From: Bacteroidia bacterium
GTDB lineage: Bacteria; Bacteroidota; Bacteroidia; AKYH767-A; OLB10
NCBI GenBank assembly: GCA_020847635.1
Contig: JADLBQ010000049.1
Span: forward strand, 1 to 64,000
Length of the DNA: 64,000 nucleotides
Direction of reading: 5' to 3'
Part shown: positions 2,342-43,207 of the stretch, piece after piece
How the letters are laid out: each line of letters starts with the position of its first letter
How positions within the stretch are numbered: position 1 is the stretch's first letter
The notes under the pieces: generated by a model
Database searches by the model: none
The model's input: the letters and a program-made list of their open reading frames with translations, nothing else
What the model was told of the DNA's origin: nothing
Made by a program: the position numbers and the translations under genes

Positions 2342-2400
2342 CTGAGCAGGATTTCTTTGTGTTAAAACGAGTTAATTTCATTTGATGATGGATTACCAAT

Positions 2401-2793
2401 TTGAATGGTTCTACAATGGAGAAAATAGCCTTTAGTTTTATTTTGGATTATCTCTACCCGCTGGAAATCCGGGTCAGTCCGATGTTTGGATGCCATGCCC
2501 TTTATAATCATGAAAAAATATTATTAATAGTAAGAGATCGGCCGGAGCATAACGAGTCAAACGGAATATGGATAGCCACCACCTTTGAACATCATGCAAG
2601 CCTGGAGCAAGATATCACCTGCCTTCATTCGGTATCCATTCTGAATGACAGGAAACGAGAAACTGCCTGGCGAATGATTCGGTCAACAGATCAGGATTTT
2701 GAAAAGAATGCTTTAAAAATCTGTGAGTTAATTAAGAATGGAGATATACGGATTGGAAAATTTCCAAAGGCAAGGAAAAAGAAGCTACACTAA
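2401..2793 (+). CDS. Conserved hypothetical protein, possibly TfoX N-terminal-like
   Basis: 130-aa ORF with RVSPMFGCHALY...ILLIVRDRP...GIWIATTFEHHASL. Start is TTG at 2401 or ATG at 2416. Confidence 0.6.
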   Translation: MNGSTMEKIAFSFILDYLYPLEIRVSPMFGCHALYNHEKILLIVRDRPEHNESNGIWIATTFEHHASLEQDITCLHSVSILNDRKRETAWRMIRSTDQDFEKNALKICELIKNGDIRIGKFPKARKKKLH

Positions 2794-4272
2794 GTCAGAA
2801 GAAATAAACTCCAGGGCGGTCTTTATGTCATAATATAAAATCCGGTCTTCACGGATAAAGGGAGAAACTTTTCTCCAATCAGCAATTAAGGATTCAAGTG
2901 AGGGAGAAGTCTTTAAAGGTCTTCTGAATTCAATTGCCTGGGCAGCACAAAGAAGCTCAATAGCCAAAATAGTTTCTGTATTTTTAATCACCTGATATAA
3001 TTTTACTGCAGCATTAGCACCCATGCTGACATGATCTTCCTGACCGTTTGATGAGACAATGGAGTCAACCGATGAAGGGGTACACAATTGTTTATTTTGC
3101 GAAACAAGAGAGGCAGCAGTATATTGAGGAATCATCAAGCCGGAATGAAGGCCGGGATTTGCAATCAGGAAAGGCGGGAGTTCCCGTTGCCCGGAAATCA
3201 GCTGAAAAGTTCTGCGTTCGGAGATGTTGCCCAATTCAGAAATGGCAATTGCCATAAAATCCAAAGTAAGTGCAAGAGGCTGACCATGAAAATTACCGGC
3301 AGAAATAATCAGATCCTGGTTCGGAAAAACGGTAGGGTTATCGGTTACTGAATTAATTTCAGTACTTATAACAGATTGACTATAACGAAGAGCATCTTTT
3401 GAAGCACCATGAACCTGGGGGATACACCTGAAAGAATACGGATCCTGAACATGGAGCTTTTTTTGATTTAAGATTTCACTTCCTTCGAGTAATTGATTGA
3501 TCTGAGTTGCAGTTTCAATCTGACCTTTATGAGGACGGATCTGATGAATAAGCTGATGGAAAGGTTCGATCCGGCAATTGAAGGCATCCATTGAAAGGGC
3601 GGCAATTTTATCAGCCCATTTGATCAGTTTCTTTGAATTTAGCACCGCCCAGCAGGCGTAGCTGCTCATAAACTGAGTTCCGTTTAAAAGAGCAAGACCT
3701 TCTTTTGATTTCAGTTTAACTGGATTCCAACTGAACTTTCTGAGGATCTCAGCAGCAGGTTGCTTTTGACCCTGGAAAGAAATTTCCCCTTCGCCAATCA
3801 GTGGGAGGGAAAGGTGGGCTAAAGGAGCCAGGTCGCCAGATGCGCCTAAAGAGCCCTGTTCATAAACAACAGGCAGAATATCGTTATTGTAAAAGTCAAT
3901 CAGCCGCTGAACGGTTTCAAGCTGAACACCGGAATTTCCATGGCTCAGTCCTTTTATTTTCAAAAGGAGCATCAGCCTGATAATTTCTGAAGGAACTTCC
4001 TGACCGGTACCACAGGCATGTGAGCGAACCAAATTTACCTGGAGTTGCTCAAGTTGTTCTGAGGGGATTGATTTATCATACAACGATCCGAAACCAGTGT
4101 TTATACCATAATAAGCAGCTAAACTCCTGGCTATTTTTCTATCAAGGTAATTCCTGCATTCATTTATGTGAGTTATTGTTTCCTCAGCAAGTTCAAGTTT
4201 TGTTTCTGAATCAGTAATTGATTTCAGTGTTTCAAAGTCAATCGGAGCAGAGGATATGGTATATGTTTTCAT
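2785..4272 (-). CDS. hutH: Histidine ammonia-lyase
   Basis: MIO-forming Ala-Ser-Gly in GSLGASGDLAPLAHLSLPLIGEG. Family signature NTGFGSL and QVNLVRSHACGTG. 'SH' at the selectivity position fits histidine rather than Tyr/Phe. Confidence 0.92.
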   Translation of the reverse strand: MKTYTISSAPIDFETLKSITDSETKLELAEETITHINECRNYLDRKIARSLAAYYGINTGFGSLYDKSIPSEQLEQLQVNLVRSHACGTGQEVPSEIIRLMLLLKIKGLSHGNSGVQLETVQRLIDFYNNDILPVVYEQGSLGASGDLAPLAHLSLPLIGEGEISFQGQKQPAAEILRKFSWNPVKLKSKEGLALLNGTQFMSSYACWAVLNSKKLIKWADKIAALSMDAFNCRIEPFHQLIHQIRPHKGQIETATQINQLLEGSEILNQKKLHVQDPYSFRCIPQVHGASKDALRYSQSVISTEINSVTDNPTVFPNQDLIISAGNFHGQPLALTLDFMAIAISELGNISERRTFQLISGQRELPPFLIANPGLHSGLMIPQYTAASLVSQNKQLCTPSSVDSIVSSNGQEDHVSMGANAAVKLYQVIKNTETILAIELLCAAQAIEFRRPLKTSPSLESLIADWRKVSPFIREDRILYYDIKTALEFISSDLV

Positions 4273-16800: not shown

Positions 16801-17903
16801 TAGCTAATAAACTCACCATCAACATAATTTCCGGGTGTAGCTGACGGAGGGATATTATAAACAAGCCAGAAGAAATTATCTCCGTTATAGAGATTAAATG
16901 CCAGAGACGGAATAAACCTCAGGTTTGTGGTTCCTCCAAAGGGATTGTTAATCTGGGTTCCAATCTGGGTTGCAACAACAATGTCGAAAATGGGAGTACC
17001 GGCAGTCCAGTATAACCGGGCCGAGGAAATATCGGTCATGTAATTGGTTGTTGAACCCAGCAGGTTAAAAACAAGAGAATCAATGGTAAGCGGATTGGCT
17101 GCACCGGCAACTTTCAGATTGGCTGCTACAACCCACTGCCCGGTTGTATTTACATTAACGCCAGCGGTATTCTGGTAAGCAAGTCCATACGAAATAACAC
17201 TTTGGTTGCTGGGGTAGGTTTCAATCTGAAAGGAATCAATCCAGATATCATTTCCGGTGTACTGGGCGCTTTCACTTTTCCCGACAATGATTACATAAAG
17301 TGTAGAAACCGAATAAAGCGCACCGGCAGGAATGGTGTAGAAATATTGATACCAGTTATTAGGAGTCATTACTGTAGGTGCATTATTAAAATACCGGTGA
17401 ATCTGCGGAGCAGCATTTACATTATCGCTCAGAAGGAGTGCATTTGGACCCGTAATATCGGGGGCGGTATTTATATAAACGGCTACATTATCGAGGGTAT
17501 TGCCGTTATTATCCCGGTACATATAGAATGCAAAGGTTGAAGGAGTAACAGGACCACGGGCAGAGAGGTCAAAAGGTCTTGAAATAAGCAGTGAGCCTTC
17601 AACCGGTACAGGAGGAACACTTAATAAATTGGGAGCTCCTACCATGTAAGAACGGAAACCCATCATTCCGTTTCCGGCATGGGTACCATGAAGCGGATTG
17701 GTAAGGGATGTGTTATTGCGAATCCAATAGTTCTCTGCCGGGTAGTTAGTTGGCAACACCATTTCCTGAGACCAGCCTAAAGCAGGAAACTGGGAAGGCA
17801 TACCACCAACCAGATCAAAAGTCTCATAGACCATTGTCTGAGAAAATACCGGAGCAGCAGACAGCAGAAAAAAAACAACCAGGTGAAGTATTATTTTTTT
17901 CAT
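13887..17903 (-). CDS. Large secreted multidomain protein with GEVED-like domain and C-terminal T9SS type A-like sorting domain
   Basis: Signal peptide MKKIILHLVVFFLLSAAPVFSQ. GEVED-like region AAWIDYNYNGIFEVAEKI...LRVREVYAASNIDPCATYTWGETEDYTITI. C-terminal SYKLIDVAGRIISSADG...NLASGIYSIIIFNETDRTSYKFTR. Confidence 0.85.
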   Translation of the reverse strand: MKKIILHLVVFFLLSAAPVFSQTMVYETFDLVGGMPSQFPALGWSQEMVLPTNYPAENYWIRNNTSLTNPLHGTHAGNGMMGFRSYMVGAPNLLSVPPVPVEGSLLISRPFDLSARGPVTPSTFAFYMYRDNNGNTLDNVAVYINTAPDITGPNALLLSDNVNAAPQIHRYFNNAPTVMTPNNWYQYFYTIPAGALYSVSTLYVIIVGKSESAQYTGNDIWIDSFQIETYPSNQSVISYGLAYQNTAGVNVNTTGQWVVAANLKVAGAANPLTIDSLVFNLLGSTTNYMTDISSARLYWTAGTPIFDIVVATQIGTQINNPFGGTTNLRFIPSLAFNLYNGDNFFWLVYNIPPSATPGNYVDGEFISYGANGIKYTSPNPVTLVGARKIDVSYCLPLYTAGTSWAGYTNNDYIAHVNLPGETGYPIIDNYMNSVGPNAGGCTGGPCPFSIHPPDYERFPAVPGKTTTLMVSKNYALTAQVGTWYSSNYLAAWIDYNYNGIFEVAEKIMQSPNLASNGTYTANFTVPATANLGATTLRVREVYAASNIDPCATYTWGETEDYTITIIPDCAILPGWRVWLGGFDDDWNNIMNWCGGVPTISSDAAVLEDIDGTTPGIQAPTYQPVIRLGVNATTRKFRIEGNSSLTINGKNNRSFTAADSLTISTNSEIKVIDHHQDSAKLYNGKLTLAFEAFSLRNPGFRQRTATWFLASEMYAEGLMNGDRIDTIAFEFYTRSTTVPYNGFTLSYYYTNANYFASSPPTTWPPVNGLPAAPVTVFTGNLNLSAPGPFYLPPTGGMLYLPLSTPIDFNPLGRDIVFVICYGNATNNASNDDKLYGTQSVNTPVSNRKYVVTRGIGGGASGCTFNPMPLSGPYQRQSSDIRPNFQFHFYRTYEPVLIKIGNGSGAGFWQNNGSFIAGNSQVMFNGNMEQKIFGSSNTTFNRLTVNNISGHVRLDQDIVVDSVLYLMSGRLKIDSNLVTLNWSDVSALTRAANGYLQSEVNDSLSYSRIRWKIGSDLNSRLFPFITAGGVYIPFTYVPTAGTHDLTVSTYPTILPTNTPLPLGVNSANNAWTGLNNAANMVKRYWYINNTGVNPQANITFTFAPAESAGAGAYRSQRFDPVLEKWRPYTAGQSNPTATSNLSPGLVDLNHAWALTLEPQPLPIELLSFRATPEGKQVKLEWITASEFNCSHYMIDRTKDGHEFTFIGRKESMGNRTTNSIYTMYDENPLTGLQYYRLTEVDINGEEKSYPLVPVNISKELKIITVADHSENNFSVIFNYNSNKPFSYKLIDVAGRIISSADGMPATEGMNQLDINLNLASGIYSIIIFNETDRTSYKFTR

Positions 17904-18188
17904 AATTGTGTGTGTTAAAATAGAATTATACTCGTTTAAATGATTTTAAGTTTAGAAACTAACCGGGAACAATTTCTTGTCAACCGGAAATTCGCCTCTA
18001 ATTTCATAAATCTCAAAAGGAAAAACAAATTATTTTCAGACTTTTGTTAATAAAAAACAGAACTGTTAATTTTCTGACTGTGAAGTTAATACAAAAGTAT
18101 TATAAGGACCGGTAACTGAGCAGCAATACAAAATTTTTAACCTTTGCTCTTCTTCCATTTTACCTCTGGTATAAATTGTTAAAATGAT

Positions 18189-20252
18189 ATGAAAAAAATC
18201 CTGGCAATTCTTCTGACCCTGACTTTACTGAAAACATTCACGGCAACCTCACAGACAGTATATACGCCTGAACTGTTATGGAAACTAAAACGGATTTCAG
18301 ATCACTCCTTATCACCGGATGGCAGCAAAGTGGTTTATACTGTCAGAAGTTTTGACCTGGCAGCTAATAAAGGCAACACAGACATCCGGCTGCTGGATAT
18401 CAAAACAGGTAAGACCACTTCGCTGGCCAATGAGCATGCCGTAGATGAAACATCGCCACGGTGGCTATCCGATTATCTCATTGTTTATATGGCTGCCGAT
18501 TCGGATGGGAACAACCAGTTATGGATGATTCAGGCAGACGGTACAGGTAAAAAACAAATTTCCTTTTTTGAGCCAGCGTTTTCAATCAGCAATTACGGAT
18601 TCTGCCGGAGTGCACAACAATTCTGGTTTACCTCAGAAGTAAAGATGCTCAATGTATTCGGAAAAGAATTTTTCAAAGATCTTCCGGAAAACTCAGCCCG
18701 CATTTATGATGACCTGATGTATCGCCACTGGAATGCATGGGATGACGGAAGCCGGACACATGTCTTCACTGCCCGGTTTGATGGAACCAGACTGGGAGCA
18801 GCAACCGATATCATGAAAGACGAACCTTTTGATTCGCCTTTGAAACCAAATGGCGGAGCCGGGCAAATTGATATCAGTGCAGACGGAAAATGGATTGCTT
18901 ATACCTGTAAAAAACTAAACGGAAAAGCGTATGCCGTTTCAACCAACAGCGATATTTTCCTGTATGAAATTGCAAGCGGTAAGACTGTGAACCTGACCGA
19001 AGGAATGCAGGGGTATGATGTGGCACCCCGGTTTTCGCCTGATGGCAGTCAGCTCTTATGGCTGAGCATGGAAACACCGGGATATGAAGCAGACCGCAAC
19101 CGGATTATGATTATTGATCTTAAAACCAAACAAAAAAGAGAAGTAACCCAACATTTTGATTATTCGGTTGATGATGCCAGATGGAGTTCAGACGGATTAC
19201 AGATTTATTTTGGCTGCATGATCCAGGCAACGGGCCAGATCTGGGTTTATGACTCTAGGCTGAGAAGTGCTTATCCGTTCCGGCAAATCACTCACGATAC
19301 CGGTGACCATACCGGTTTTTCCATAGCCGGTTCAGGAAATTCAACGGTGATGGTATCTTCCATGATGAGTATGAGTTATCCGGCTGAGCTGTTTAGGATA
19401 AACCTGAAGAGCGGCCGTTCGCAGCAGATCACTTTCGAGAATCAGGAAATTCTGCAAAGAGTTGCAACCGGGAAAGTAGAAAAGCGGATGGTTAAAACAA
19501 CCGACCAAAAAGACATGCTGGTTTGGGTTATCTATCCACCGGGTTTTGATCCGGCCCGGAAGTATCCGGCACTGCTCTATTGCCAGGGCGGTCCACAGAG
19601 TACGGTCAGCCAATTTTTCTCCTACCGTTGGAATTTTCAACTCATGGCAGCCAATGGGTATATTGTGGTAGCACCCAACAGACGTGGTCTTCCGTCTTTC
19701 GGAACGGAATGGAATCGCGAGATTTCGGGAGACTGGGGTGGGCAGTGTATGAAAGATTATCTGTCGGCTATAGATGACGTTAGTAAGGAATCGTATGTAG
19801 ATAAAGACAAGATGGGAGCGGTAGGGGCCAGTTTTGGAGGATACAGTGTTTACTGGCTGGCCGGCCATCACCAGAAACGGTTTAAAGCATTTATTGCTCA
19901 TTGCGGGGTATTCAATCTGGAGAGCATGTACGGAACAACCGAAGAACTATGGTTTACAAATTTTGACCTGGGAGGGCCATACTGGCAAACTCCTCAGCCT
20001 AAATCTTACCGGGAATTTTCACCTCATGATTTTGTAAATGACTGGGATACCCCGATTCTGATCATTCACAATCAGAACGATTTTAGGGTACCGCTGGGCC
20101 AGGGAATGGACGCATTTACAGCCGCCCGGTTAAAAAACATTCCAGCACGTTTTCTGTATTTTCCGGATGAATACCACTGGGTTACCCGGCCGCAGAACAG
20201 TGTTGTTTGGCAGCGGGTTTTTTTCAGCTGGCTTGACCGCTACCTGAAATAG
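18189..20252 (+). CDS. S9 family peptidase (prolyl oligopeptidase / dipeptidyl-peptidase 5-like)
   Basis: Signal peptide, beta-propeller-like N-terminal half, catalytic GASFGGYSVYWLAGH, HNQNDFRVPLGQG and DEYHWV. Confidence 0.9.
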   Translation: MKKILAILLTLTLLKTFTATSQTVYTPELLWKLKRISDHSLSPDGSKVVYTVRSFDLAANKGNTDIRLLDIKTGKTTSLANEHAVDETSPRWLSDYLIVYMAADSDGNNQLWMIQADGTGKKQISFFEPAFSISNYGFCRSAQQFWFTSEVKMLNVFGKEFFKDLPENSARIYDDLMYRHWNAWDDGSRTHVFTARFDGTRLGAATDIMKDEPFDSPLKPNGGAGQIDISADGKWIAYTCKKLNGKAYAVSTNSDIFLYEIASGKTVNLTEGMQGYDVAPRFSPDGSQLLWLSMETPGYEADRNRIMIIDLKTKQKREVTQHFDYSVDDARWSSDGLQIYFGCMIQATGQIWVYDSRLRSAYPFRQITHDTGDHTGFSIAGSGNSTVMVSSMMSMSYPAELFRINLKSGRSQQITFENQEILQRVATGKVEKRMVKTTDQKDMLVWVIYPPGFDPARKYPALLYCQGGPQSTVSQFFSYRWNFQLMAANGYIVVAPNRRGLPSFGTEWNREISGDWGGQCMKDYLSAIDDVSKESYVDKDKMGAVGASFGGYSVYWLAGHHQKRFKAFIAHCGVFNLESMYGTTEELWFTNFDLGGPYWQTPQPKSYREFSPHDFVNDWDTPILIIHNQNDFRVPLGQGMDAFTAARLKNIPARFLYFPDEYHWVTRPQNSVVWQRVFFSWLDRYLK

Positions 20253-31451: not shown

Positions 31452-33074
31452 TCAGAAGCCGATATTTAGCCCGGCAGTGAGTGTTGTGGTTTTACCTCTC
31501 CATACGGAAGGGGTATAAGCCTGAGTATAGTCGGGATTACCACTCACATGGGATGATTCTATTCCAGCAAAGACAAAAGCATCATTTACGATTTCATACC
31601 GGAATAGAAGAGAAAGTGATTGCTGCTTCCACATGGTTTGACTTATAAACTGAAGACCCAGTCCGCTGCCACCAGTACCTAAATAGTCATAATCGGGGCC
31701 TTTACGTGCAGATGTGAAAGATGCATACAAACTAAACTGCCGGAAGGGCCTGCACCGGATTCCGAAATAAATTTCTTCGGCATTATCTCTCAGATAATGA
31801 CCCATGTTATAGTGGTTTGACTCAAAGGTGGTCGTATTTACAAAATGTTTGTAGGTAGCAGGGTTTGTTCGTGTATATTCAGCAATCAGGGTTGAGTTAA
31901 AGAGAACAGGATGGGAAAGTGCTCCGCCAAGTTTTAAACTGATAAAATTGGATGCTTTATCTGAATTAAAACGCTCTTTTGAAAACTCATCAATAAACAC
32001 TGAAGCATAGAGGTGGAGGTATTTAATATTTCTTGAACTTACCGTTAGATACATCTGGGAATTCTGCCCGGTAAAATTTCCAGAAGTGTTTGATGTGGTG
32101 TGATCAATGGATTTGAAAAAATAGACTGGAATCAGATAGCCTAATTGAAATTCATCTGAGTAAACAATTGAGTTACCAATACCAATTTGAAGATTTTTAA
32201 CGGGTTCGACTGTAAACATATTGGCAGCCAGGAATTTTTGAACAAATACTGAACGGTTCTTAACACCAGCCACATAGCTACGGGTTGTATCCAGTACATC
32301 TGAGACTAGAAAAGCATGGACATAATCAAAATACAGCCATTTTACCGGATGCATATAAAGTTTCAGACAGGGAAATGAAGGAGTTTTACCTGAAAAGATG
32401 TTAGCTCCGTGGTAGTTGGGTCCCCAGATAAAGTGATCTTTCTGAATTGAAGTATACCCCCACTTCCAGGAATAGGTAATTCCTCCTCGGGATTCGCTGT
32501 ATTCACCCTTCGGGCTGAATGGGTTCTCTTTGTATGCAGCACCCGTACGCATGTTCAGATATCCGGGCTTTTCTAACTGATAGTTTTCAAAATTATCCCT
32601 GAGGCTACCATAGATACCGATATGCGGACCTATGGTTGCAAAAAATTCTGCCCCATTCCAGCGGTGAAAAAAATTTTGATTTTCATTAGTCCAATATTGA
32701 TAACCTAATACCGGATTTAAGGTAAGGTTAAATAAGCTGTCAGAGTAATAAAGAAGGTCAAGGCGTTTTTTAAAGGCTCCCTTGGTACGGATAAGTTCCT
32801 TATTATAATCAGTTAGGTAAAAATCAAGTTCTTTTAGCTGGCGGATATTTAATAATGACCGGCTTTCATCAGCCTGTTTCAGCCAGGCGGCAATCTGCCT
32901 TCGTGAATAGGGTTTAACAGAAGTATTAATCTCTGAAATTACTTGTTGATTGGCTAGTTCATCAATAAATTCATAAACCGAAGTATTAGATACATGCACA
33001 AATACATCCTGGGCACAAAGGGGGCGGATCAGGAAAATTAAACAGAAGATTATACTGCAAGCGACAAATTTCAT
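31452..33074 (-). CDS. Capsule assembly Wzi-like outer-membrane protein
   Basis: Signal peptide MKFVACSIIFCLIFLIRPLCAQ, N-terminal VYEFIDELANQQVI...YSRRQIAAWLKQA and an aromatic-rich beta-barrel, typical of Bacteroidota Wzi-like proteins. ATG at 33074 preferred. Confidence 0.75.
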   Translation of the reverse strand: MKFVACSIIFCLIFLIRPLCAQDVFVHVSNTSVYEFIDELANQQVISEINTSVKPYSRRQIAAWLKQADESRSLLNIRQLKELDFYLTDYNKELIRTKGAFKKRLDLLYYSDSLFNLTLNPVLGYQYWTNENQNFFHRWNGAEFFATIGPHIGIYGSLRDNFENYQLEKPGYLNMRTGAAYKENPFSPKGEYSESRGGITYSWKWGYTSIQKDHFIWGPNYHGANIFSGKTPSFPCLKLYMHPVKWLYFDYVHAFLVSDVLDTTRSYVAGVKNRSVFVQKFLAANMFTVEPVKNLQIGIGNSIVYSDEFQLGYLIPVYFFKSIDHTTSNTSGNFTGQNSQMYLTVSSRNIKYLHLYASVFIDEFSKERFNSDKASNFISLKLGGALSHPVLFNSTLIAEYTRTNPATYKHFVNTTTFESNHYNMGHYLRDNAEEIYFGIRCRPFRQFSLYASFTSARKGPDYDYLGTGGSGLGLQFISQTMWKQQSLSLLFRYEIVNDAFVFAGIESSHVSGNPDYTQAYTPSVWRGKTTTLTAGLNIGF

Positions 33075-33101
33075 AAGCACTGAGTTGGTCGCCTGCAAAT
33101 A

Positions 33102-34211
33102 TCAGTTACTTCTTGCGCTTTTGATGATGATGTTTTTCAGGGCTTTAAAAAAGTATTTCACATCGGTTGTAAAAGGAGCTTTTTCATAAAGCCTGAGGTA
33201 TTTCATTTCCGAATTCATAATTTCATCAAGGGTTTTCGGAAGGTCAGCATAAAAGGGAGGAATGAGTCCGGGTTTAAACTTAGATCGTTTTTTCCGTAGC
33301 TCGGAGGAATAAAGACTAAGGTACTGCCTGCTCAGCGGCCTGACACCTACAATTTTCAAATCACCTTTGATCAGGTTATAGATCATCGGCAACTCATCAA
33401 TCCAGTATTTTCTGAATAACTTTCCTACAGTTGAAACCCTGAAATCATTTTTAAATTTTCCACCTTCCTGAAGGGAATGATGTTCGTAGACATATTGCTG
33501 CAAGTGGTCAGCAAAAGCATGCATGGTACGGAGTTTATACACATGAATGATTTTACCGTCTTTACCAATTCGCTTCATTTTGTAAATTGGACCGTAAGTG
33601 GGTTCAGGTTCAAAAGTTGGTTCATCTTTTTTCTGAGCAACAAAAAACAACCTGTTGTTAATCATTTTCTCATCCAGGATGGTAAAGCCGCATGCATAAA
33701 GGCGTCCCAGCGTTTCGGTACGTGACAACACCCGGTTTCTGCCGGCTGTAAGTTTGAAATAAATTTTACGGGTTACCGGTAGCTTTGGGAATACTCTTTT
33801 TACAATAAAATCACCATAATAAATAAAGTGAGATATGACTTTGGGATATTTATTGAGAAGCCGGATTTTCCGGCTTCCTTTTGTTTCAACACATCCGATA
33901 AAACAGCCGCCTTTAGGAAGCCTGGCATTGACCATTTCAAAGAAATAATTAATACGGAGGATGTCATTAACTTTTCCAAGGTTTACAATACAACTGGTGT
34001 TTTCAGAAGCTAAGGCATTGATGTTAAATGCATTTCTAGTAGAGACAACCAGGGTTTCAGGATCATCAATAAGGGTGTACCGATTAATAAATTTCAGGAC
34101 ATCAGCTCCAAAATGGGTCAGGATTGATTTTTTGGCATTTGTAAAAGGACTGACAGTCGGTTTACTTTTACTTTCTACAAAAACTGATTTCTGGTAAAAA
34201 TATTTAAGCAT
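33102..34211 (-). CDS. Sugar transferase (bacterial sugar phosphotransferase catalytic domain) with an unusual N-terminal domain
   Basis: KMKRIGKDGKIIHVYKLRTMH and STVGKLFRKYWIDELPMIYNLIKGDLKIVGVRPLSRQY match the phosphoglycosyltransferase core with the Asp-Glu dyad. No hydrophobic helix seen upstream. Confidence 0.82.
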   Translation of the reverse strand: MLKYFYQKSVFVESKSKPTVSPFTNAKKSILTHFGADVLKFINRYTLIDDPETLVVSTRNAFNINALASENTSCIVNLGKVNDILRINYFFEMVNARLPKGGCFIGCVETKGSRKIRLLNKYPKVISHFIYYGDFIVKRVFPKLPVTRKIYFKLTAGRNRVLSRTETLGRLYACGFTILDEKMINNRLFFVAQKKDEPTFEPEPTYGPIYKMKRIGKDGKIIHVYKLRTMHAFADHLQQYVYEHHSLQEGGKFKNDFRVSTVGKLFRKYWIDELPMIYNLIKGDLKIVGVRPLSRQYLSLYSSELRKKRSKFKPGLIPPFYADLPKTLDEIMNSEMKYLRLYEKAPFTTDVKYFFKALKNIIIKSARSN

Positions 34212-34338: not shown

Positions 34339-35400
34339 TTAACAATTTGTCACAAAATCTTGAATAATACGGTTAAGATCTTCGGTTTGGCTGTACATTT
34401 TTTCTGCACGCGCCCGGTTAATGTGTTTAGAATCTGAATTGGTTAACTGTTTCCGTACTGATTCTAACAAGAATAGGGGTTTAGCAGTAGGGATCCCAGT
34501 CGTTAGATTGAATTTATGTTCAAGTTCCTCAAGATAGCTGATTTGCCCGACAAAGTCGTTAAACCTGATTGAAGGTGTACCCATCACTGCAGCTTCAGCG
34601 GCCATAGTCTGACTGTCGCCAATATATAAATCTGCAAAATACAATGCATGGTGAATTTCCTGCGGTGCAATCTGAATACGGTAAGGTTCGAACTCCGGTT
34701 CAAGCGGCCGTTCAGAGGTTATATAAACATTTCCGGCTGGAAGGAGAATTTCTAAGAGTTTATTGGCTAACTCATCATTGATTCCTTTTTTACCTTCATC
34801 ATGGTGTGCTCCGAGATGAGCAAATCGGAGAATGAAATACTTATCCCGGTTGGCTTTCAGTTTCCGACCAATGGCTGTATCAGGAGTGAAATAATCGGGA
34901 TGGAGGTAAGCCAGTTCATGGTAACCATGATAGCCGGACTTTTTCTTATTCCACCTGCCAGCATTGCAACAGTGAGGTGCCAATATTTTCCAGGCAAAGG
35001 GATAGGCCAGTTTTGCAAAGAGCGGAACAACTTCAGCATCATCTTCATTTACAACTACTGATTTTATTCGCATTAATCTGCCCACATGAGCAATTTCAGC
35101 AGAGGTGCCAAACATAATATCAGGCCTGAACTTTCTGCAGAACTGCCAGGTCTGGAAGTTGCGGTAAAGCAGTGCAAGTGCTATTGAGAACTTGTTGTCT
35201 TTTCTTCCTTTTGGATTTATGTTAACATAATCCCAACCGGTTGACTGGACCAGATTTTCAAGAACATCTTTCTTTTTAATCAGAATAGCAACCGGGTGTT
35301 TCTCTTCTTTTAAGATTTTGATACTGTTTTTAAACAGATGAAAGTGGGCCGGGTGACCCAAGTAAAAAAGAACTCTCTTTTTTTCATTCATAAGCAGCAA
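34339..35400 (-). CDS. DUF354-like protein (GT-B / UDP-GlcNAc 2-epimerase-like fold)
   Basis: RVLFYLGHPAHFHLFKNSIKIL, DIMFGTSAEIAHVGRLM, LYIGDSQTMAAEAAVMGTPSIRFNDFVG. Start at 35400 or an internal ATG. Confidence 0.8.
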   Translation of the reverse strand: MLLMNEKKRVLFYLGHPAHFHLFKNSIKILKEEKHPVAILIKKKDVLENLVQSTGWDYVNINPKGRKDNKFSIALALLYRNFQTWQFCRKFRPDIMFGTSAEIAHVGRLMRIKSVVVNEDDAEVVPLFAKLAYPFAWKILAPHCCNAGRWNKKKSGYHGYHELAYLHPDYFTPDTAIGRKLKANRDKYFILRFAHLGAHHDEGKKGINDELANKLLEILLPAGNVYITSERPLEPEFEPYRIQIAPQEIHHALYFADLYIGDSQTMAAEAAVMGTPSIRFNDFVGQISYLEELEHKFNLTTGIPTAKPLFLLESVRKQLTNSDSKHINRARAEKMYSQTEDLNRIIQDFVTNC

Positions 35401-36544
35401 GTGTAGCTAAAGCAGCAAACATCCATGCATCAGACCATCTCATAAAGGAAGTTTTTCTGATGGTGTGTTTAAACTTTCTGAAATAGAAATAGCCATCGGG
35501 GCTTTGCATTTGGGTAATGGTAAACCGGGCTACTTTAACAGCCAGCTCAGTTTTTTGGTTGGAAGTTAACGTGAGTATGGATTGGGCAGCTGCAGTACAA
35601 TCTGTTGGATACGGGTTTGAGTTATAAAACTTAGGCATTCCGTCAGCATGAAAGAAGTTCTTTTCATAAAAATCAAATCCTTTTCTGAAATGCTCCTTAA
35701 ATGTATCATCCTTACAAAGGCTGATATAACTTTTCAATCCGTCCAGTATATAACCGGTGTGGTAGTTATCAATCCAGGTACCTGCTTTAGAAGTGGAGTA
35801 AATCCAGGCTCCGTCAGGCCGTTGATGATTCATTACAAACGAAACAGCCAGATGAGCAATGTCTTTAAGTTCCTTCTTTCCATTCACTGAATAAACCTGG
35901 GAGAGGAGCCTGACTGCTTTCATGCTTGCATTAAAAACCACCTGTTTATCGAACGGAGAGTAGGAAAAGCAAACTGATCCATCCGGTCCGGTCGTTCTTT
36001 TCAGGTCCTGAAGAATAAAGTTTGTTGCTTCGGAGCATAAGGTCAATGATTGATTGTTTCCGGAGATCAGGTAAAAGTTAAACAGGGCATTAGTAATGAT
36101 GCCGGTTGCCACAATGGTGGGCTGAAAGGCAGGAATGGAGGCATAACGGGCTTCCCAGTCAAAATCATAACCCCAGCAAGGCCCGTGAAATCCCTCAGGG
36201 ATCAGCTTTTCAAGTTGAGAAATCAGCCAATCAATTTTAGCAGTCCATTCCTGCTTTCTTTCCGGAAAAACACGAATCAACTGAGTATAACCCTGGATGC
36301 ATAATCCGAGTGTAACCGGGTTAAGGCGTTTTTTAATTCCAAGTAATGGACGCAGGTTAACAGGAGAACGTTTGACCAGTTGCTGGGCCAGGAACCTAAC
36401 TGATTTATTGGACTTTAAAACAGGAAGTCGGAATAAGGGAGAGGTTAAACCATCATAAGGATCAAATCCTTTGTAATTTTCCTGTTCAATATGCCTGACA
36501 AGTTTTTCAAGTGACTGGATGATAAACCGGTCTTGCATGTTCAT
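35384..36544 (-). CDS. Alpha/alpha-toroid protein of a polysaccharide locus (function unknown)
   Basis: Repeated helical-hairpin pattern with HQRPDGAWIYSTSKAGTWIDNYHTGYILDGLKSY and MQSPDGYFYFRKF, prenyltransferase/squalene-oxidase-repeat-like. No catalytic motif recognised. Confidence 0.65.
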   Translation of the reverse strand: MNMQDRFIIQSLEKLVRHIEQENYKGFDPYDGLTSPLFRLPVLKSNKSVRFLAQQLVKRSPVNLRPLLGIKKRLNPVTLGLCIQGYTQLIRVFPERKQEWTAKIDWLISQLEKLIPEGFHGPCWGYDFDWEARYASIPAFQPTIVATGIITNALFNFYLISGNNQSLTLCSEATNFILQDLKRTTGPDGSVCFSYSPFDKQVVFNASMKAVRLLSQVYSVNGKKELKDIAHLAVSFVMNHQRPDGAWIYSTSKAGTWIDNYHTGYILDGLKSYISLCKDDTFKEHFRKGFDFYEKNFFHADGMPKFYNSNPYPTDCTAAAQSILTLTSNQKTELAVKVARFTITQMQSPDGYFYFRKFKHTIRKTSFMRWSDAWMFAALATLAAYE

Positions 36545-36556
36545 CTAAGGTATCAA

Positions 36557-38689
36557 TTATGGAAGGTCAATCTGAATCGAAGCTCCATTTGTACGGATGG
36601 ATTCGATAACTTTAAAAGTAACCAGGGTGCTGTGATAGATAGCATCAAACGACAGGGGTGCCGGTTCTCCGTTTTCAATAGATTTAATAAAGCGGGTTAT
36701 GGTGGCTTTGTGGCCTTTATCCTGGGTAGTTTTAACGTGAGTTTTTGATTTTCCGTAAATAGTCAGTTCCCTGAAATCATCCAGCACCGCCACATTACCA
36801 TAACCAAACACCTCAAGATATTCTTTATTCAGATTTTTATTTCCGTTCGAGAAGTAAGCAATCGTTGCAATGCTTCCATTGGCAAACTGCAGGTTGATTG
36901 TGAGTGTATCGTGCAGGTTATGTGGATCTTCCATGGCAGTTGCACTGAGATGAGTAACCCGGGATTCTGAAATAAAGCAGCATAAATCAATAAAATGACA
37001 GACCTCCCCGATGATTCTTCCGCCACCCGTTTCAGGATCATGAACCCAGTGATCAGAAGGTACGATTCCGGCATTGATGCGGTACAGGATTGAAACCGGA
37101 GTTGAGTTGATAAATGTATTTTTGATTTGTTCCATAATTGGAGCAAATCGCCTGTTGAAACCTAACATCAGCAAGGCTTTTGAGCCGGCATACGTGTTTT
37201 TAATAATTTCAAGTTCATGTTCGTTGAGGCACAAAGGCTTCTCTGTAAAAACATGTTTATCTTTTTCCAGTGCTTTAATTACATATTCAGCATGGGTATT
37301 ATGCCGGGTAGCAATAAAAATGGTATTCACCATTTCATTGTTAATTACTTCATCAGCATTACCGGTTGCCATAGCAAATCCGAATCTTGAGGCAATGTTA
37401 ATGGCATTGTTTGAACGTGCTGTAGCGACTGCTTCAAACTGAACTTGTCCCTTCAGGGAAGGGAGCATGAAATTTTGTCCGAAACTTCCGGCTCCTATCA
37501 GTCCGGCTTTAACCTTTGATTGAACAGGAATGTGATCTGTTAACTCAATATTTTTGTTCAGCTCTTTTTTGACATCGTATTCAAGAACAATTCCTCTGAA
37601 CCACTCGTTATTATCAAGAATCAGCTGATAAGCATTCTGAGCCTGCTCAAACGGGTAGCGATGGGTAATCAGGCTTTTAATATCTATTTTTTTCTGAGCT
37701 AACAATTCTGCAAATGATTGCATGTTACGGTTTTCGGTCCACCGTACATAACTATAAGGATAGTCAATTCCTTTTTCTTCGTATTCAGAATCGTAGCGGC
37801 CGGGTCCATACGAACTGGACATGCGCAAGTCAAGCTCTTTGATATAATAGTTTTTGCGTTCAAATCCTGTAGGTACAGCGCCCACAATAACTACTTTTCC
37901 TTTTTTGCGGGCTAACTGGCCGGCTAAATCAACAGGATCCGTTGAATTTGTTGCTGCTGTAATGATAATGGCATCTGCTCCATAGCCATTTGTAAACTGA
38001 AGAATGGAGTTTTCAAGACCAGGATTGTTACGGGAAAAAGCAGAACCGGGGAATAAACGGTTTGTATCGGTGACGGCTTTTTCGCTTACATCAATTCCCA
38101 CTACATGAACTCCGCCCGCTTTGAGCAACTGCATAGTCAGCTGGCCGATTAATCCAAGACCAATGACTACACTGTTCTCGCCAAGCCGCAGATCAGACTG
38201 TCTTATTCCCTGCATGGCAATAGCTCCAATGGTGGTGAAAGCGGCTTCATCAAGGGCTACCTCCTCTTTCAGTTTAACGCATAAATTAACAGGAACTGAA
38301 ATGACTTCTGAATGACAGGCCGAACTTCCGGCACAAGCAACCCGGTCGCCCGTTTTAAAGTCCTGAACATCACTTGCCAGGGCAATAATCTGGCCTGCTG
38401 AACTGTAACCCAGCGGGGAGGGGGTTTCAAGTTTATTCATGACCATCCGGTAGGTATCACGGATACCATAGGTACGAATTGCATCCATGACTTTTTTTAC
38501 TTCCTGCTTACGGGCCCGGGCTTTCCCGATGTATCCGAGCCGGGCATCTTTCACAGTTTTACCTTCGGTACCGGCACTAATTACTGAAAAATGATTTCTG
38601 ACCAGTACATGACCGGGGAGCAGTGCCGGAAAAGGAACTTCCCGGATCTGCATCGTTCCATCCTTCAGTAATTGAGTTAGTTGTTGCAT
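36557..38689 (-). CDS. Bi-domain oxidoreductase: zinc-type alcohol dehydrogenase fused to Gfo/Idh/MocA dehydrogenase
   Basis: N-terminal MDR domain (VIGLGLIGQLTMQLLKAGGVHVVGIDVSE); C-terminal GLIGAGSFGQNFMLPSLKG...HVFTEKPLCLNEHEL...GFNRRFAP. Confidence 0.9.
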   Translation of the reverse strand: MQQLTQLLKDGTMQIREVPFPALLPGHVLVRNHFSVISAGTEGKTVKDARLGYIGKARARKQEVKKVMDAIRTYGIRDTYRMVMNKLETPSPLGYSSAGQIIALASDVQDFKTGDRVACAGSSACHSEVISVPVNLCVKLKEEVALDEAAFTTIGAIAMQGIRQSDLRLGENSVVIGLGLIGQLTMQLLKAGGVHVVGIDVSEKAVTDTNRLFPGSAFSRNNPGLENSILQFTNGYGADAIIITAATNSTDPVDLAGQLARKKGKVVIVGAVPTGFERKNYYIKELDLRMSSSYGPGRYDSEYEEKGIDYPYSYVRWTENRNMQSFAELLAQKKIDIKSLITHRYPFEQAQNAYQLILDNNEWFRGIVLEYDVKKELNKNIELTDHIPVQSKVKAGLIGAGSFGQNFMLPSLKGQVQFEAVATARSNNAINIASRFGFAMATGNADEVINNEMVNTIFIATRHNTHAEYVIKALEKDKHVFTEKPLCLNEHELEIIKNTYAGSKALLMLGFNRRFAPIMEQIKNTFINSTPVSILYRINAGIVPSDHWVHDPETGGGRIIGEVCHFIDLCCFISESRVTHLSATAMEDPHNLHDTLTINLQFANGSIATIAYFSNGNKNLNKEYLEVFGYGNVAVLDDFRELTIYGKSKTHVKTTQDKGHKATITRFIKSIENGEPAPLSFDAIYHSTLVTFKVIESIRTNGASIQIDLP

Positions 38690-38790: not shown

Positions 38791-39558
38791 TCAGATTTTT
38801 TGAACTGCCTCATTCCGGAGCCACCCTTCATGGCCATTCGGCAGCCGGATTCGTTTCCATTCGTTTAACTCATCAATTAACTGGACTTTGGCGCCTCCGT
38901 GCAGCATAAATAAGTTATTGCTGTTTTCATCAGGAGATGATTTTACATAAACATTAGTCTGAAAAATAATTCCTTCCTTACTGTTGTTCAGATAATGTTG
39001 CTGAGCATATGCTAATAAGAAAAGCCCAGTTGCAAAAGCCAGTGAAACCAAGCTTAATGAGAAGGCTATTTTCCGAATCCGGGCAGGCGGGATAAATAAC
39101 CAGGCTGCCACACAAATAAAACAAATCCAAAGAAGCAGGGAAGCTGCAAGAGCCCGTTTGAGAGCGGATGATTTCAGTATAAACGACTTCCACCATTTTT
39201 TATAAAAAACCTGAGGGATTGGTTCAATTTTATCAATGGTCAGACTATTCGCTAATTTGAGATTAAACTCAATATCAGGATCATCGGGCTTGAGCCGTAA
39301 AGCCCGTTCATAATTCAGGATTGAAGCCGGTATATCTGCTGTTTTATAATATGCATTACCAAGGTTAAAATAAATTTCAGCCGATACAAACCCTGATTGG
39401 ATCATTTGGTTATAGAGGGAAACAGCTTCTGAATATTTCTGGTGCTGGTAGAGCGTATTTGCACTGTCAAATAACATTTGCTGATTTGCTGCCCAAACAG
39501 GATGGGCCAGCACAATGACCAAAGAGGTTTGAATCAGGAGTTTACGAATTTGTTTCAT
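38791..39558 (-). CDS. batE: BatE-like protein: TPR + TM + SH3-like domain
   Basis: Signal peptide, TPR AEIYFNLGNAYYKTADIPASILNYERALRLKPDDPDIEFNL, two TM segments, C-terminal SH3b-like VYVKSSPDENSNNLFMLHGGAKVQLIDELNEWKRIRLPNGHEGWL. Follows batD. Confidence 0.8.
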   Translation of the reverse strand: MKQIRKLLIQTSLVIVLAHPVWAANQQMLFDSANTLYQHQKYSEAVSLYNQMIQSGFVSAEIYFNLGNAYYKTADIPASILNYERALRLKPDDPDIEFNLKLANSLTIDKIEPIPQVFYKKWWKSFILKSSALKRALAASLLLWICFICVAAWLFIPPARIRKIAFSLSLVSLAFATGLFLLAYAQQHYLNNSKEGIIFQTNVYVKSSPDENSNNLFMLHGGAKVQLIDELNEWKRIRLPNGHEGWLRNEAVQKI

Positions 39559-39562
39559 CGGA

Positions 39563-41413
39563 TCAGCTTTTTAGCGTTTGTTGAAGTGCGGTCAGAACCC
39601 CTGAAGCCCGGTTATACATTTCAGCGGCTGAATGCGAGTTGTAGCCTCCGGCAAACCGTGCCATTTCACATTGGTCAATGGCTTCATTAAATTGATGAAT
39701 GATTTCAACTGCTGTATGCTTTTGCTTCAACGCATCATTGACCGAGTCTTTTGAGAGATCAGCATGAGAAATCCGGAGTTTACCGGAAACAAATTCCCAT
39801 AAGGCTTTGGAGACTTCATTGTAGAACAATTCATGTTCGTTCTTATCCAGATGCTTTTTCGCAGCAGCCAGTTTCTGACGGGCAATGGAGGTTGCCTTCC
39901 GGCTTCTGACATCTGCAGCATCGGAATTAAGTTTACTGATCCGGTCTTTCAGAATGAGCAAGGCGGTAATAAACAACAACGGCAGAACGGAAGCAATTAA
40001 CCATTTAGGATTGCGCAGAAAGGACTCTCGGGTAGAGATAAAATTTACAGGCCCTGTTTTAATAAACCGGATATCCTGACTTAGGATTTGAACCTCACTG
40101 CGGGAAGGAGTCATTGCAGACATAGAACCACCACCTACTCCTTTGTTTACTTTAAGCCTGAATGGACCGGAAGTAAATGACTCATAGCTTTTTTTATCTA
40201 AGTCGAAATAAGAGAAAGTAACAGCCGGGATTTCATAATTTCCTTCATTTCTGGGAATGAGCAGGTAGTCATACATTCTTGAACCGCTAACACCACCTGA
40301 ATTTACAGTAGTGTTATCAGTCAGTTTTGGTTCATAAGATTCAATTCCGGGGGGTACTTCAATAGCAGGTGCATTGAACAGACGAATATTTCCCTTTCCA
40401 TTCAGTTTAATACGTAAGGAGATGGCATCGTTGGCATTTGCTTCATTGCGGTCAAGAGTTGCTTCAAATGAAAATTTTCCAACCATGCCCTTGAATGATG
40501 CAGGTGCTCCGGGAGGGAGATTCTTCACCGTAATTTTAACCGGGTGGCTTGCCAGTGCAATCTTCACATCACGGAATCCGCGATTAAAAAACGGGTCATT
40601 AAAAAACGGATCATTAAAAACATCAAACGGATCATTAGGGTTTCTTTTTCGCTGTGTTCTGACCCGTGCAATGCACTCGCCTTCCATTGCATCAATGGTA
40701 AGGGTACCGCTTTGTTGGGGAAAGGCAATTGATTTTCTGATATCACCGTAGTTATACTGCACACCATTTACTGTTTCAACTTTACTGATATCAAGCTGCC
40801 CGGGCATAGGAATATCAACAGAGTAAAATCCGTTTAACGAGGCTGTTTTTGTTAATGCATAGTTAACCAGCTGAACACGGGTATATAGCCTGAAAGTTAC
40901 AGATACCCCTTCACCGCGATATACATTGGTTTTATCAACAATGGCACGGATAAAAACATCCTCGGCAGAAACTCCTTCGCTACCTGGCTGCTGCGGTTGC
41001 TGATTTCCCTGCTGACTTTGCAGCTGGCCTTTTACAACAGAAATAGTGAATGGAGGAGATTCCAGTTTTTTCCCGTTACAGACAATAGAAGCAGAACCAA
41101 TTTTAAACTGGCCTTCAGTTTTTGCCTGGAGGTAATAGGTAAAGGAGAGTGACTGGGTGATGTTCCCGTTAATAATCTGAACACTTGATGACTGGTTTGG
41201 CCCGCTCAGAACAGAGAATTCACTGAATGAAGGACCTTCAAATGCCGAACCGGAAGCATTCAGCGTAAAGGTTACCTGAAACTGTTCACCGGTGGTAACT
41301 GGATTTCTTGATATGGAAGCAGACAATGACTGGGCAGTTAACTGAGTGCAGGCAATCAGTAGCCCGATAACAGCTGATACTATTCCTTTAAGCATAAATT
41401 CCTCCCTTACCAT
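39563..41413 (-). CDS. batD: BatD-like protein
   Basis: Signal peptide, ASISRNPVTTGEQFQVTFTLNASGS, DVFIRAIVDKTNVYRGEGVSVTFRLY, NDPFFNDPFF repeats, late TM helix. Position in the bat operon. Confidence 0.88.
   Translation of the reverse strand: MVREEFMLKGIVSAVIGLLIACTQLTAQSLSASISRNPVTTGEQFQVTFTLNASGSAFEGPSFSEFSVLSGPNQSSSVQIINGNITQSLSFTYYLQAKTEGQFKIGSASIVCNGKKLESPPFTISVVKGQLQSQQGNQQPQQPGSEGVSAEDVFIRAIVDKTNVYRGEGVSVTFRLYTRVQLVNYALTKTASLNGFYSVDIPMPGQLDISKVETVNGVQYNYGDIRKSIAFPQQSGTLTIDAMEGECIARVRTQRKRNPNDPFDVFNDPFFNDPFFNRGFRDVKIALASHPVKITVKNLPPGAPASFKGMVGKFSFEATLDRNEANANDAISLRIKLNGKGNIRLFNAPAIEVPPGIESYEPKLTDNTTVNSGGVSGSRMYDYLLIPRNEGNYEIPAVTFSYFDLDKKSYESFTSGPFRLKVNKGVGGGSMSAMTPSRSEVQILSQDIRFIKTGPVNFISTRESFLRNPKWLIASVLPLLFITALLILKDRISKLNSDAADVRSRKATSIARQKLAAAKKHLDKNEHELFYNEVSKALWEFVSGKLRISHADLSKDSVNDALKQKHTAVEIIHQFNEAIDQCEMARFAGGYNSHSAAEMYNRASGVLTALQQTLKS
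40591..40620 (-). repeat. Tandem 15-nt repeat within batD encoding FFNDP units
   Basis: ACGGGTCATTAAAAA then ACGGATCATTAAAAA (one mismatch), flanked by partial copies. Protein reads NDPFDVFNDPFFNDPFFNRGF. Confidence 0.8.
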
Positions 41414-42165
41414 TGCTTTTCTACTTCTATTCGTTGTCCTTCTTTTTTATTCAGTTTTTTCTGAATCTCTTTTTCATTATTCTTCAGTGCTTCCAGGATC
41501 TGTTCAGCTTCTTCTTTAGAAATTTTCTGGTCTGGTTTCCGGGCATCGCCTGATTGATCTTTTGGTTGTTGCTGATTTTGCTGTTGCTGGTTTTGTTGTT
41601 CTTGCTCCTTCTGATTCTGGTCGTTTTTCTTGTTATCCTGCTGATCTTTATTTTTCTCGTTTTGCTGATTTTGTTCCTGCTCTTTCAGAATTTTCTGAGC
41701 ATATGCCAGGTTGTAGCGCGTGTCATCATCTTTCGGATTAAGCCTAAGCGCATTTTTGTAAGCTTCAATACATTCATTAAATTTTTGCATTTTGAAGTAA
41801 GCATTACCGAGGTTGTGATAATCGTGTGCAGTTAAACTTTTTTCAGTTGAGAGAGTTGAAGCTCCATTAAACTGTCTGGCAGCCTCTTCAAATTTTTCTT
41901 GTTTGTATAAAGCGTTTCCAAGATTAAAAGTTGCATTAAAAGAAGTTTCGTTTTTTTCAAGGCCTTTCCGGTATTTAATTTCAGCCTCTGAGTAATTTCC
42001 TTTCTCATAGGCACCATTACCGCTTCTGACCATTTTTCTTTCGGGTTGTGCATTAGCCCATTGAGCCAGCAGGATCATCATACTAAGGAACAGTATGGAT
42101 TTAACAAAACTGTTATTCCTGATCAGGCTAACCTGTATAGGTGTTTTTACAATTTCAGGCATCAA
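41407..42165 (-). CDS. batC: BatC-like TPR protein with Gln/Asn/Lys-rich low-complexity region
   Basis: TPR units (NLGNALYKQEKFEEAARQFNGAS, HNLGNAYFKMQKFNECIEAYKNALRLNPKDDDTRYNL), then QNQQNEKNKDQQDNKKNDQNQKEQEQQNQQQQNQQQ. Confidence 0.85.
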   Translation of the reverse strand: MMPEIVKTPIQVSLIRNNSFVKSILFLSMMILLAQWANAQPERKMVRSGNGAYEKGNYSEAEIKYRKGLEKNETSFNATFNLGNALYKQEKFEEAARQFNGASTLSTEKSLTAHDYHNLGNAYFKMQKFNECIEAYKNALRLNPKDDDTRYNLAYAQKILKEQEQNQQNEKNKDQQDNKKNDQNQKEQEQQNQQQQNQQQPKDQSGDARKPDQKISKEEAEQILEALKNNEKEIQKKLNKKEGQRIEVEKQW

Positions 42166-43207
42166 GTTGTTTTTTTTGTTCAGCGAATGATTTCAGTTTT
42201 TCAATCCATCTGCTTTTGCGCTCATTCATCAAAAATTCGCTTATCATTAGAACTAGGGCTGCCAGCAGAAAGTATTGATATTGTTCTTCATAATCGGTAT
42301 AAAGAAACGTTCCGATTTCTCTTTTTTCCATTTCATTGACTTGTTTAAGGATGATATCCAGACCGTCATCACTGTTTGAAGCCTGAACAAATTTTCCTTT
42401 CCCGGCATCCGCAATTTCAGATAAAACTTCAGGGTTAAGCCGGGTAATAACAGTTTTACCAGACTGATCCTGCATAAATCCGGTTCGGATTCCGTTTCGG
42501 TAAATCGGAATGGGAGCTCCTTCGGGAGATCCCATTCCGATGGTATGAATTACAATTCCTTTTGCAGCAGCAGCTTTAGCACTGGCAACAGCATCATCTT
42601 CATGATTCTCACCATCCGTAATAATGATAAAAGAAGTATTCTTTGAAATGGAATCATCAATGCTTTGCATAGCCAGGTTAATGGCTGCTCCGATTGCTGT
42701 TCCCTGTGTAGGAACCATATCTGTATTAATGGTTGAAAGAAAAAGCCTGGCAGCATTATAATCGGTTGTAATTGGAAGCTGAACATAGGCCTGGCCGGCA
42801 AAAACGATTAATCCGATCCGGTCTCCTTTAAGCTTATCCAGCAACCGGTAAATCGCCTGTTTGCTTCGTTCAAGCCGCGTTGGCCGGATGTCTTCAGCAT
42901 TCATCGAATTGCTTACATCTAGGCAAATCATAATATCGGAGCCTTTACGTTTTACCTCTTCCATTTTAGTTCCGATTTGAGGCCTGGCCATTGCCAGAAT
43001 CACACAGGCTGCAGCAGCCATCAGCAAACTGAATTTTATAACTGGCTTAACAGAAGATTTAGCAGGGATCAGTACCTGAAGAAGTTCGGAATCACTCCAA
43101 CGCTTCAAAGCTTTTTTTCGCCACCATAGCATACTTAAGAATAGGATTACCAGTACGGGAATCAAAGCCAGTAACCATAACAATTCAGGCTGAGCAAATC
43201 GGATCAT
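42155..43207 (-). CDS. batB: BatB-like membrane VWA-domain protein
   Basis: MIDAS motif DVSNSMNAEDIRPTRLERSK, IVFAGQAYVQLPITTDYNAAR, IIITDGENHEDDA; flanking TM helices. Confidence 0.88.
   Translation of the reverse strand: MIRFAQPELLWLLALIPVLVILFLSMLWWRKKALKRWSDSELLQVLIPAKSSVKPVIKFSLLMAAAACVILAMARPQIGTKMEEVKRKGSDIMICLDVSNSMNAEDIRPTRLERSKQAIYRLLDKLKGDRIGLIVFAGQAYVQLPITTDYNAARLFLSTINTDMVPTQGTAIGAAINLAMQSIDDSISKNTSFIIITDGENHEDDAVASAKAAAAKGIVIHTIGMGSPEGAPIPIYRNGIRTGFMQDQSGKTVITRLNPEVLSEIADAGKGKFVQASNSDDGLDIILKQVNEMEKREIGTFLYTDYEEQYQYFLLAALVLMISEFLMNERKSRWIEKLKSFAEQKKQLDA

Follow-up and report, generated by a model that had tools for sequence, protein, structure and literature searches.

A predicted half-methyltransferase domain in place of the re-entrant membrane helix in a family of monotopic phosphoglycosyltransferase homologs from Bacteroidota

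Introduction

All members of the monotopic phosphoglycosyltransferase (PGT) superfamily are stated to include a re-entrant membrane helix (RMH) and an Asp-Glu dyad (PMC10519829). In PglC, the small monotopic PGT of Campylobacter, the RMH has been described as essential to structure and function, and polyprenol phosphate is reported to be bound through it (PMC6133551). Published analyses define the superfamily by this helix and treat it as indispensable to structure, to anchoring in the membrane, and to the binding of polyprenol phosphate (PMC10519829, PMC6133551). The role of Arg88 of PglC has also been described, and Arg145 is important for undecaprenyl phosphate (PMC10519829). The large PGTs carry a bundle of four transmembrane (TM) helices and a DUF, PF13727, which in WbaP mediates dimerization and binds uridine nucleotides (PMC10942596). 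In the bifunctional monoPGTs (Bi-PGTs), functional domains are described as having been appended to the catalytic domain of a monoPGT (PMC10942596).

Here, we describe a gene found in a stretch of 64,000 nucleotides (referred to as the window) from a Bacteroidia bacterium, the product of which combines a PGT core with a different N-terminal domain and has no RMH. In the literature searched, which did not extend to the superfamily network paper (O'Toole 2021b), we found no description of a monotopic PGT without this helix.

Results

The gene (33102 to 34211, minus strand) is an uninterrupted open reading frame of 369 amino acids plus stop, and all the peptides quoted in a preliminary description of the sequence were found in it. 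The reading frame, the Pfam match, and the full-length orthologs characterize it as an RMH-less phosphoglycosyltransferase with a predicted half-methyltransferase N-terminal domain. Its sole Pfam match was Bac_transf (PF02397; E value of 4e-24; 85.6 bits with a cut-off of 27), with residues 208 to 362 aligned to profile positions 35 to 178 of 179, and a phmmer search of the PDB matched WbaP and PglC over the same part of the protein. In a Foldseek search with the structural model, this catalytic core (residues 206 to 369; 33105 to 33596, minus strand) matched PglC (8g1n; E value of 1.7e-9) and WbaP (8t53; 4.4e-5). Scores against the NCBIfam models TIGR03025, TIGR03022, and TIGR03023 (66.7 to 86.7 bits) were below their cut-offs (295 to 411).

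The active site was conserved throughout the family. The catalytic dyad, Asp272-Glu273 (33393 to 33398, minus strand), aligns with the LDE of canonical PGTs and was invariant in 76 family sequences, as were K226, R228, D256, R258, P275, K286, G289, R291, P292, P314, and G315. R267, which by its position ahead of the dyad appears to be the equivalent of PglC Arg88, was kept in 75 of the 76. The GPRP motif of canonical PGTs is GVRP here (33336 to 33347, minus strand), with V290 in place of the proline in 72 of 76 members and the arginine of GxRP invariant, and the canonical GITGWAQV stretch has become GLIPPFY across the whole RMH-less family. PglC Arg145 has no obvious equivalent (K326 is present in only 57 of 76 sequences), although canonical PGTs also vary in this region. 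Toward its end, the core has a predicted amphipathic helix (residues 346 to 362; 33126 to 33176, minus strand; mean hydrophobic moment of 0.54). The preliminary description had proposed a PGT core with an intact Asp-Glu dyad and GVRP for GPRP, and had named the absence of essential catalytic residues as what would speak against it. The Pfam score, the PglC fold, and the family alignment bore out the proposal, and the residues were present in the 76 sequences.

In canonical enzymes, the first 34 positions of the PF02397 profile correspond to the KRxxD RMH. These positions are unmatched in the window protein, and since the match begins at position 35, the RMH is absent. In five divergent family members, the match began at positions 31 to 36. 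The other three strong Bac_transf matches in the window genome began at position 1, with the RMH present, and in a sample of 61 Bacteroidota genomes, nearly all strong matches began at positions 1 to 3. We ruled out an RMH hidden elsewhere in the window protein, given that none was found by the hydropathy scan or in the AlphaFold2 model. Its most hydrophobic 19-residue segment had a mean of 0.82 on the Kyte-Doolittle scale, whereas the three canonical PGTs encoded in this genome had RMHs scoring 2.65 to 2.91, and 14 RMHs in relatives scored at least 2.4. Among 40 family members, the half-methyltransferase domain reached a maximum of 1.48. The RMH was absent from all family architectures examined (short, four-TM, eight-TM, helix-turn-helix [HTH], tandem, and minimal).

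The AlphaFold2 model of the window protein, built with 76 sequences, had a pLDDT of 90.2 and a pTM of 0.82, and in the Foldseek search with the full model, the matches to the PglC and WbaP cores were followed by class I methyltransferases. When the N-terminal domain was modeled alone (pLDDT of 92.3), all 50 of the 50 PDB matches listed, CmaA1 among them, were S-adenosylmethionine (SAM) methyltransferases or methyltransferase-like domains. The E values (3e-5 to 1e-3) and query TM-scores (0.37 to 0.58) were modest, as expected for a partial domain. Residues 24 to 205 (33597 to 34142, minus strand) are predicted to form an incomplete Rossmann-like fold with the order alphaB-beta3-beta4-beta5-beta6-beta7, in which beta6 and beta7 are antiparallel. 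The alignment with methyltransferases begins at alphaB, so that the missing part is beta1-alphaA-beta2 with the SAM loop, and no GxGxG motif I was found in residues 1 to 100 across the family.

By sequence, the methyltransferase homology of this domain was weak. The Pfam family CMAS (PF02353) was touched by 15 of 40 family members (best E value of 7.7e-4). The window member aligned with profile positions 129 to 237, beyond the SAM half, at 13.7 bits, short of the gathering score of 27 bits. With hhalign, P values were 8.6e-4 against a CFA-type alignment (0.049 for the reversed-query control) and 2.2e-3 against Methyltransf_23 (0.23 for the control). Together, the predicted fold and, weakly, the sequence identify the domain as the C-terminal part of a class I methyltransferase, the ancestor of which may have been of the CFA type or another methyltransferase, and SAM binding in the usual manner would not be expected. 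The preliminary description had suspected just this, a C-terminal methyltransferase half without the SAM loop, and had suggested structure prediction and Foldseek as a check, the outcome of which agrees with it. Two other identities were considered and rejected. A degenerate CoA_binding_3 domain gave no signal in hhalign (P of 0.1; 0.3 for the reversed control), and PF13727 had no Pfam match in the window protein. A stand-alone protein was dismissed because every strong match in relatives belonged to the fusion protein or a disrupted copy.

Conservation climbs toward the C-terminal part of the domain and is highest at the SxxExxGRLxxCGF motif (residues 161 to 176; 33684 to 33731, minus strand), which is kept in all divergent forms and has a mean entropy of 0.74 bits, versus 2.68 for residues 24 to 58. 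Residues 109 to 165 (33717 to 33887, minus strand) make up a conserved, aromatic, and basic segment (mean net charge of +10 across the family), modeled as helices at 111 to 121, 124 to 143, and 145 to 155, interrupted at P142-K-L-P145. No variation was seen at R139 or K143, and R114, R117, D134, Y151, F152, T155, G157, and R160 are nearly invariant. A minimal form of 322 amino acids (L192) has lost the beta3-beta5 part and retains both this segment and the core. The hydrophobicity of the helix-break-helix is only moderate (about 0.0 to 1.4 Kyte-Doolittle). From the model, the charge, and the conservation, we infer that the segment may lie in the plane of the membrane as a docking element for the lipid phosphate, taking over the docking and phosphate steering of the RMH; it could also simply provide a surface for the substrate or for oligomer formation.

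A search of the proteins of 61 related genomes recovered many full-length co-linear orthologs (39 to 67% identity), and since such orthologs occur in many genomes (38 to 67% identity over all searches), the architecture is not due to chance. Scanning of GTDB species genomes gave 80 named loci, some of them from Aquimarina and Nafulsella isolates and some from MAGs of Ignavibacteriota, so that the architecture is common to at least 80 relatives in these two phyla, Bacteroidota and Ignavibacteriota. The profile of the N-terminal domain matched 27 of 33 good genomes among close relatives and was sparse across a spread of 297 Bacteroidota genomes, 23 of which had a match. One of these, in G353 (E value of 4e-4), was set aside as spurious, since by eye it resembles a pyridine-nucleotide disulfide oxidoreductase. 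The lengths of the relatives were bimodal. Hydrophobic helices, usually four, preceded the common part in 44 of 80 (mostly about 480 to 560 amino acids; one of the 44 has a mis-set start), and most of the others had 344 to 390 amino acids and no N-terminal TM helices. A tree of 109 rows implied seven changes between long and short forms, at least four of them forced by well-supported branches, although a few "short" rows are perhaps truncated by contig ends or start choice. In all seven long forms tested, the TM helices aligned with approximately positions 1 to 120 of the WcaJ/EPS sugar transferase models TIGR03023 and TIGR03025, in matches that were individually weak (best E value per form of 9e-6 to 0.03) and shared the same register. 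The window protein has no such four-helix bundle by hydropathy. A search of its genome for the bundle as a separate gene, with the first 185 residues of a long form, returned nothing; this is a weak test, having no positive-control genome. Thus, of what the preliminary description had expected, a trait of the family in Bacteroidota was confirmed and extends to Ignavibacteriota. The lack of a membrane helix holds for the window protein, where neither hydropathy nor AlphaFold2 predicts the N-terminal re-entrant helix that would have told against it, and, as regards the RMH, for the whole family, but not for TM helices in general, which the long forms possess.

In the window, the transferase gene is flanked on the same strand by the gene of a predicted secreted beta-barrel protein downstream (31452 to 33098, minus strand; cluster c0) and a DUF354 gene (34339 to 35400, minus strand; cluster c1), followed by genes for a Pec_lyase-like protein (35384 to 36544, minus strand; cluster c7, 9 loci) and a fused Zn-dehydrogenase/GFO-IDH-MocA oxidoreductase (36557 to 38689, minus strand; cluster c5). 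The barrel is labeled Wzi-like from the Caps_assemb_Wzi match of one member (4.8e-7, just under the cut-off), the window copy being without a Pfam match. Across 81 loci, we counted the Wzi-like barrel in 42, DUF354 in 25, a polysaccharide deacetylase-like protein (labeled from a weak Pfam match and an HDVD motif) in 23, FemAB/GNAT in 20, glycosyltransferases in 18, the fused oxidoreductase in 15, and Wzc-like and Wza-like proteins in 9 and 7. No constant partner gene was found beside the RMH-less transferase in these loci. Redundancy with another clustered PGT was also rejected, since no second PGT was detected within 8 genes on either side in the 81 loci by a model that recovers every family member as a positive control; canonical PGTs do occur elsewhere in the window genome (three). 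In four loci (L038, L047, L049, and L058), the gene directly downstream of the transferase (+1) encodes a VanZ-like membrane protein (PF04892; E value of 5.8e-9 in L047). Upstream of the polysaccharide genes, the window has an aerotolerance (Bat)-type cluster (38791 to 43207) with BatD, BatA/VWA, and TPR proteins.

Discussion

Set against the published definition of monotopic PGTs, the family has the core and the dyad and lacks the RMH. It is homologous to these enzymes and very probably works like one, and the window gene probably encodes a sugar-1-phosphate transferase that starts a surface polysaccharide. The window protein shares with PglC the core fold (8g1n/8e37; E value of ca. 2e-9), the dyad, the putative Arg88 equivalent, and GxRP, but differs in the half-methyltransferase domain in front instead of an RMH, in GVRP for GPRP, and in KPGLIPPFY for RPGITGWAQ. 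With the large PGTs WbaP and WcaJ (TIGR03022, TIGR03023, and TIGR03025), the family has in common the core, similar gene neighborhoods, and, in the long siblings, a similar TM bundle, but the half-methyltransferase domain substitutes for CoA_binding_3 (PF13727) and the RMH as one block, and the window protein has no TM helices at all. The N-terminal domain resembles class I SAM methyltransferases (CmoA, Coq5/UbiE, and CmaA1/CFA synthase) in predicted fold, the beta6-beta7 hairpin, and motifs of the LPxGG and SxxExxxxxxxGF types, without their beta1-alphaA-beta2 and GxGxG SAM loop. Bi-PGTs also have an extra domain fused to the PGT core (PMC10942596); in the window family, however, this domain takes the place of the RMH and is itself incomplete.

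On balance, we consider it probable that an RMH-less PGT initiates the polysaccharide, with the half-methyltransferase domain replacing the RMH and the helix-break-helix doing the docking; support is strong for the architecture, and the docking mechanism is inferred. Synthesis would be started by normal PGT chemistry, after a C-terminal class I methyltransferase half had taken the place of the RMH and, in the long forms, of the CoA_binding_3 domain as well. Docking and acceptor delivery would be carried out by the helix-break-helix around residues 109 to 165 together with amphipathic helices of the core, all in the bilayer plane. In sibling proteins, the N-terminal TM helices, four or about eight in number, would act as extra tethers, while the window protein would contact the membrane by peripheral binding. 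A more specific version, tentative although plausible, is that a lineage of initiating PGTs swapped its RMH for a piece of a one-time lipid methyltransferase that docks to lipid, the short forms being peripheral, soluble-like enzymes and the family representing an independent solution for delivering polyprenyl phosphate to the active site.

The domain might instead serve mainly in dimerization or regulation, with membrane association provided by amphipathic core helices, of which the C-terminal one is retained, or by partner proteins of the pathway. Its location, that of the WbaP DUF, would fit, and the N-terminal segment of divergent L194 resembles, by eye only, an O-methyltransferase dimerization domain. 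We regard this as rather unlikely, since by profile the domain is not a CoA_binding_3 homolog, no constant partner adjoins the gene, and conservation peaks at the basic helices and SxxExxGRLxxCGF instead of being fold-wide, both elements surviving in L192 despite the loss of the central strands. A change of acceptor, whether to a different membrane lipid, a soluble molecule, or a protein, would explain the loss of a helix reported to bind polyprenol phosphate (PMC6133551) once that substrate was no longer used; it would also suit the family-wide GVRP and GLIPPFY replacements and the best scores of the N-terminal domain, which were against lipid-modifying CMAS/CFA methyltransferases. Nevertheless, the nearby glycosyltransferase, Wza-like, Wzc-like, and Wzi-like genes are those expected for a polyprenol-linked pathway, long forms keep a WcaJ-type TM bundle, and no other PGT is close by to make the lipid-linked precursor, even if canonical ones exist elsewhere in the genome, all of which makes a new acceptor improbable. 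Most improbable of all is that the protein has kept its fold but lost catalysis and acts as a scaffold or regulator, as might be supposed of a relative of PglC lacking a helix described as essential (PMC6133551), because the catalytic residues do not vary among 76 divergent members and this is the only PGT gene in the surveyed neighborhoods.

Being widespread and having an intact active site but no RMH, the family offers a natural test of the claim that this helix is essential. If a half-methyltransferase replaced the RMH as we favor, it would show the recruitment of an inactive-enzyme fragment as a docking or structural module. Annotation based on PF02397 conceals the RMH-less architecture under the label "sugar transferase," and expression of the short forms for PGT enzymology may prove unusually easy.

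Several family members depart from the common layouts. In L196, L199, and L200 (643 to 671 amino acids), the half-methyltransferase domain is preceded by about eight hydrophobic helices, which appear to form two 4-TM units. In L197 and L198, a transposase-type HTH (HTH_Tnp_1; E value of 3e-4 in L197) is fused to the N terminus of the RMH-less transferase, and L191 (positions 1906 to 4071) contains a tandem pair of RMH-less transferases, the second of which runs off the contig end. Outside the family, weak Bac_transf matches were also seen in three other genomes (G105, G079, and G064), in frames of 665 to 690 amino acids located 2 to 4 kb from a canonical PGT. The window genome itself encodes (L115, positions 97 to 1746; G000:C89, about 17686 to 19335) a GT2-type protein in which a KRIFD RMH-like segment precedes a Bac_transf remnant that lacks the catalytic dyad, which is the mirror image of the RMH-less PGT architecture.
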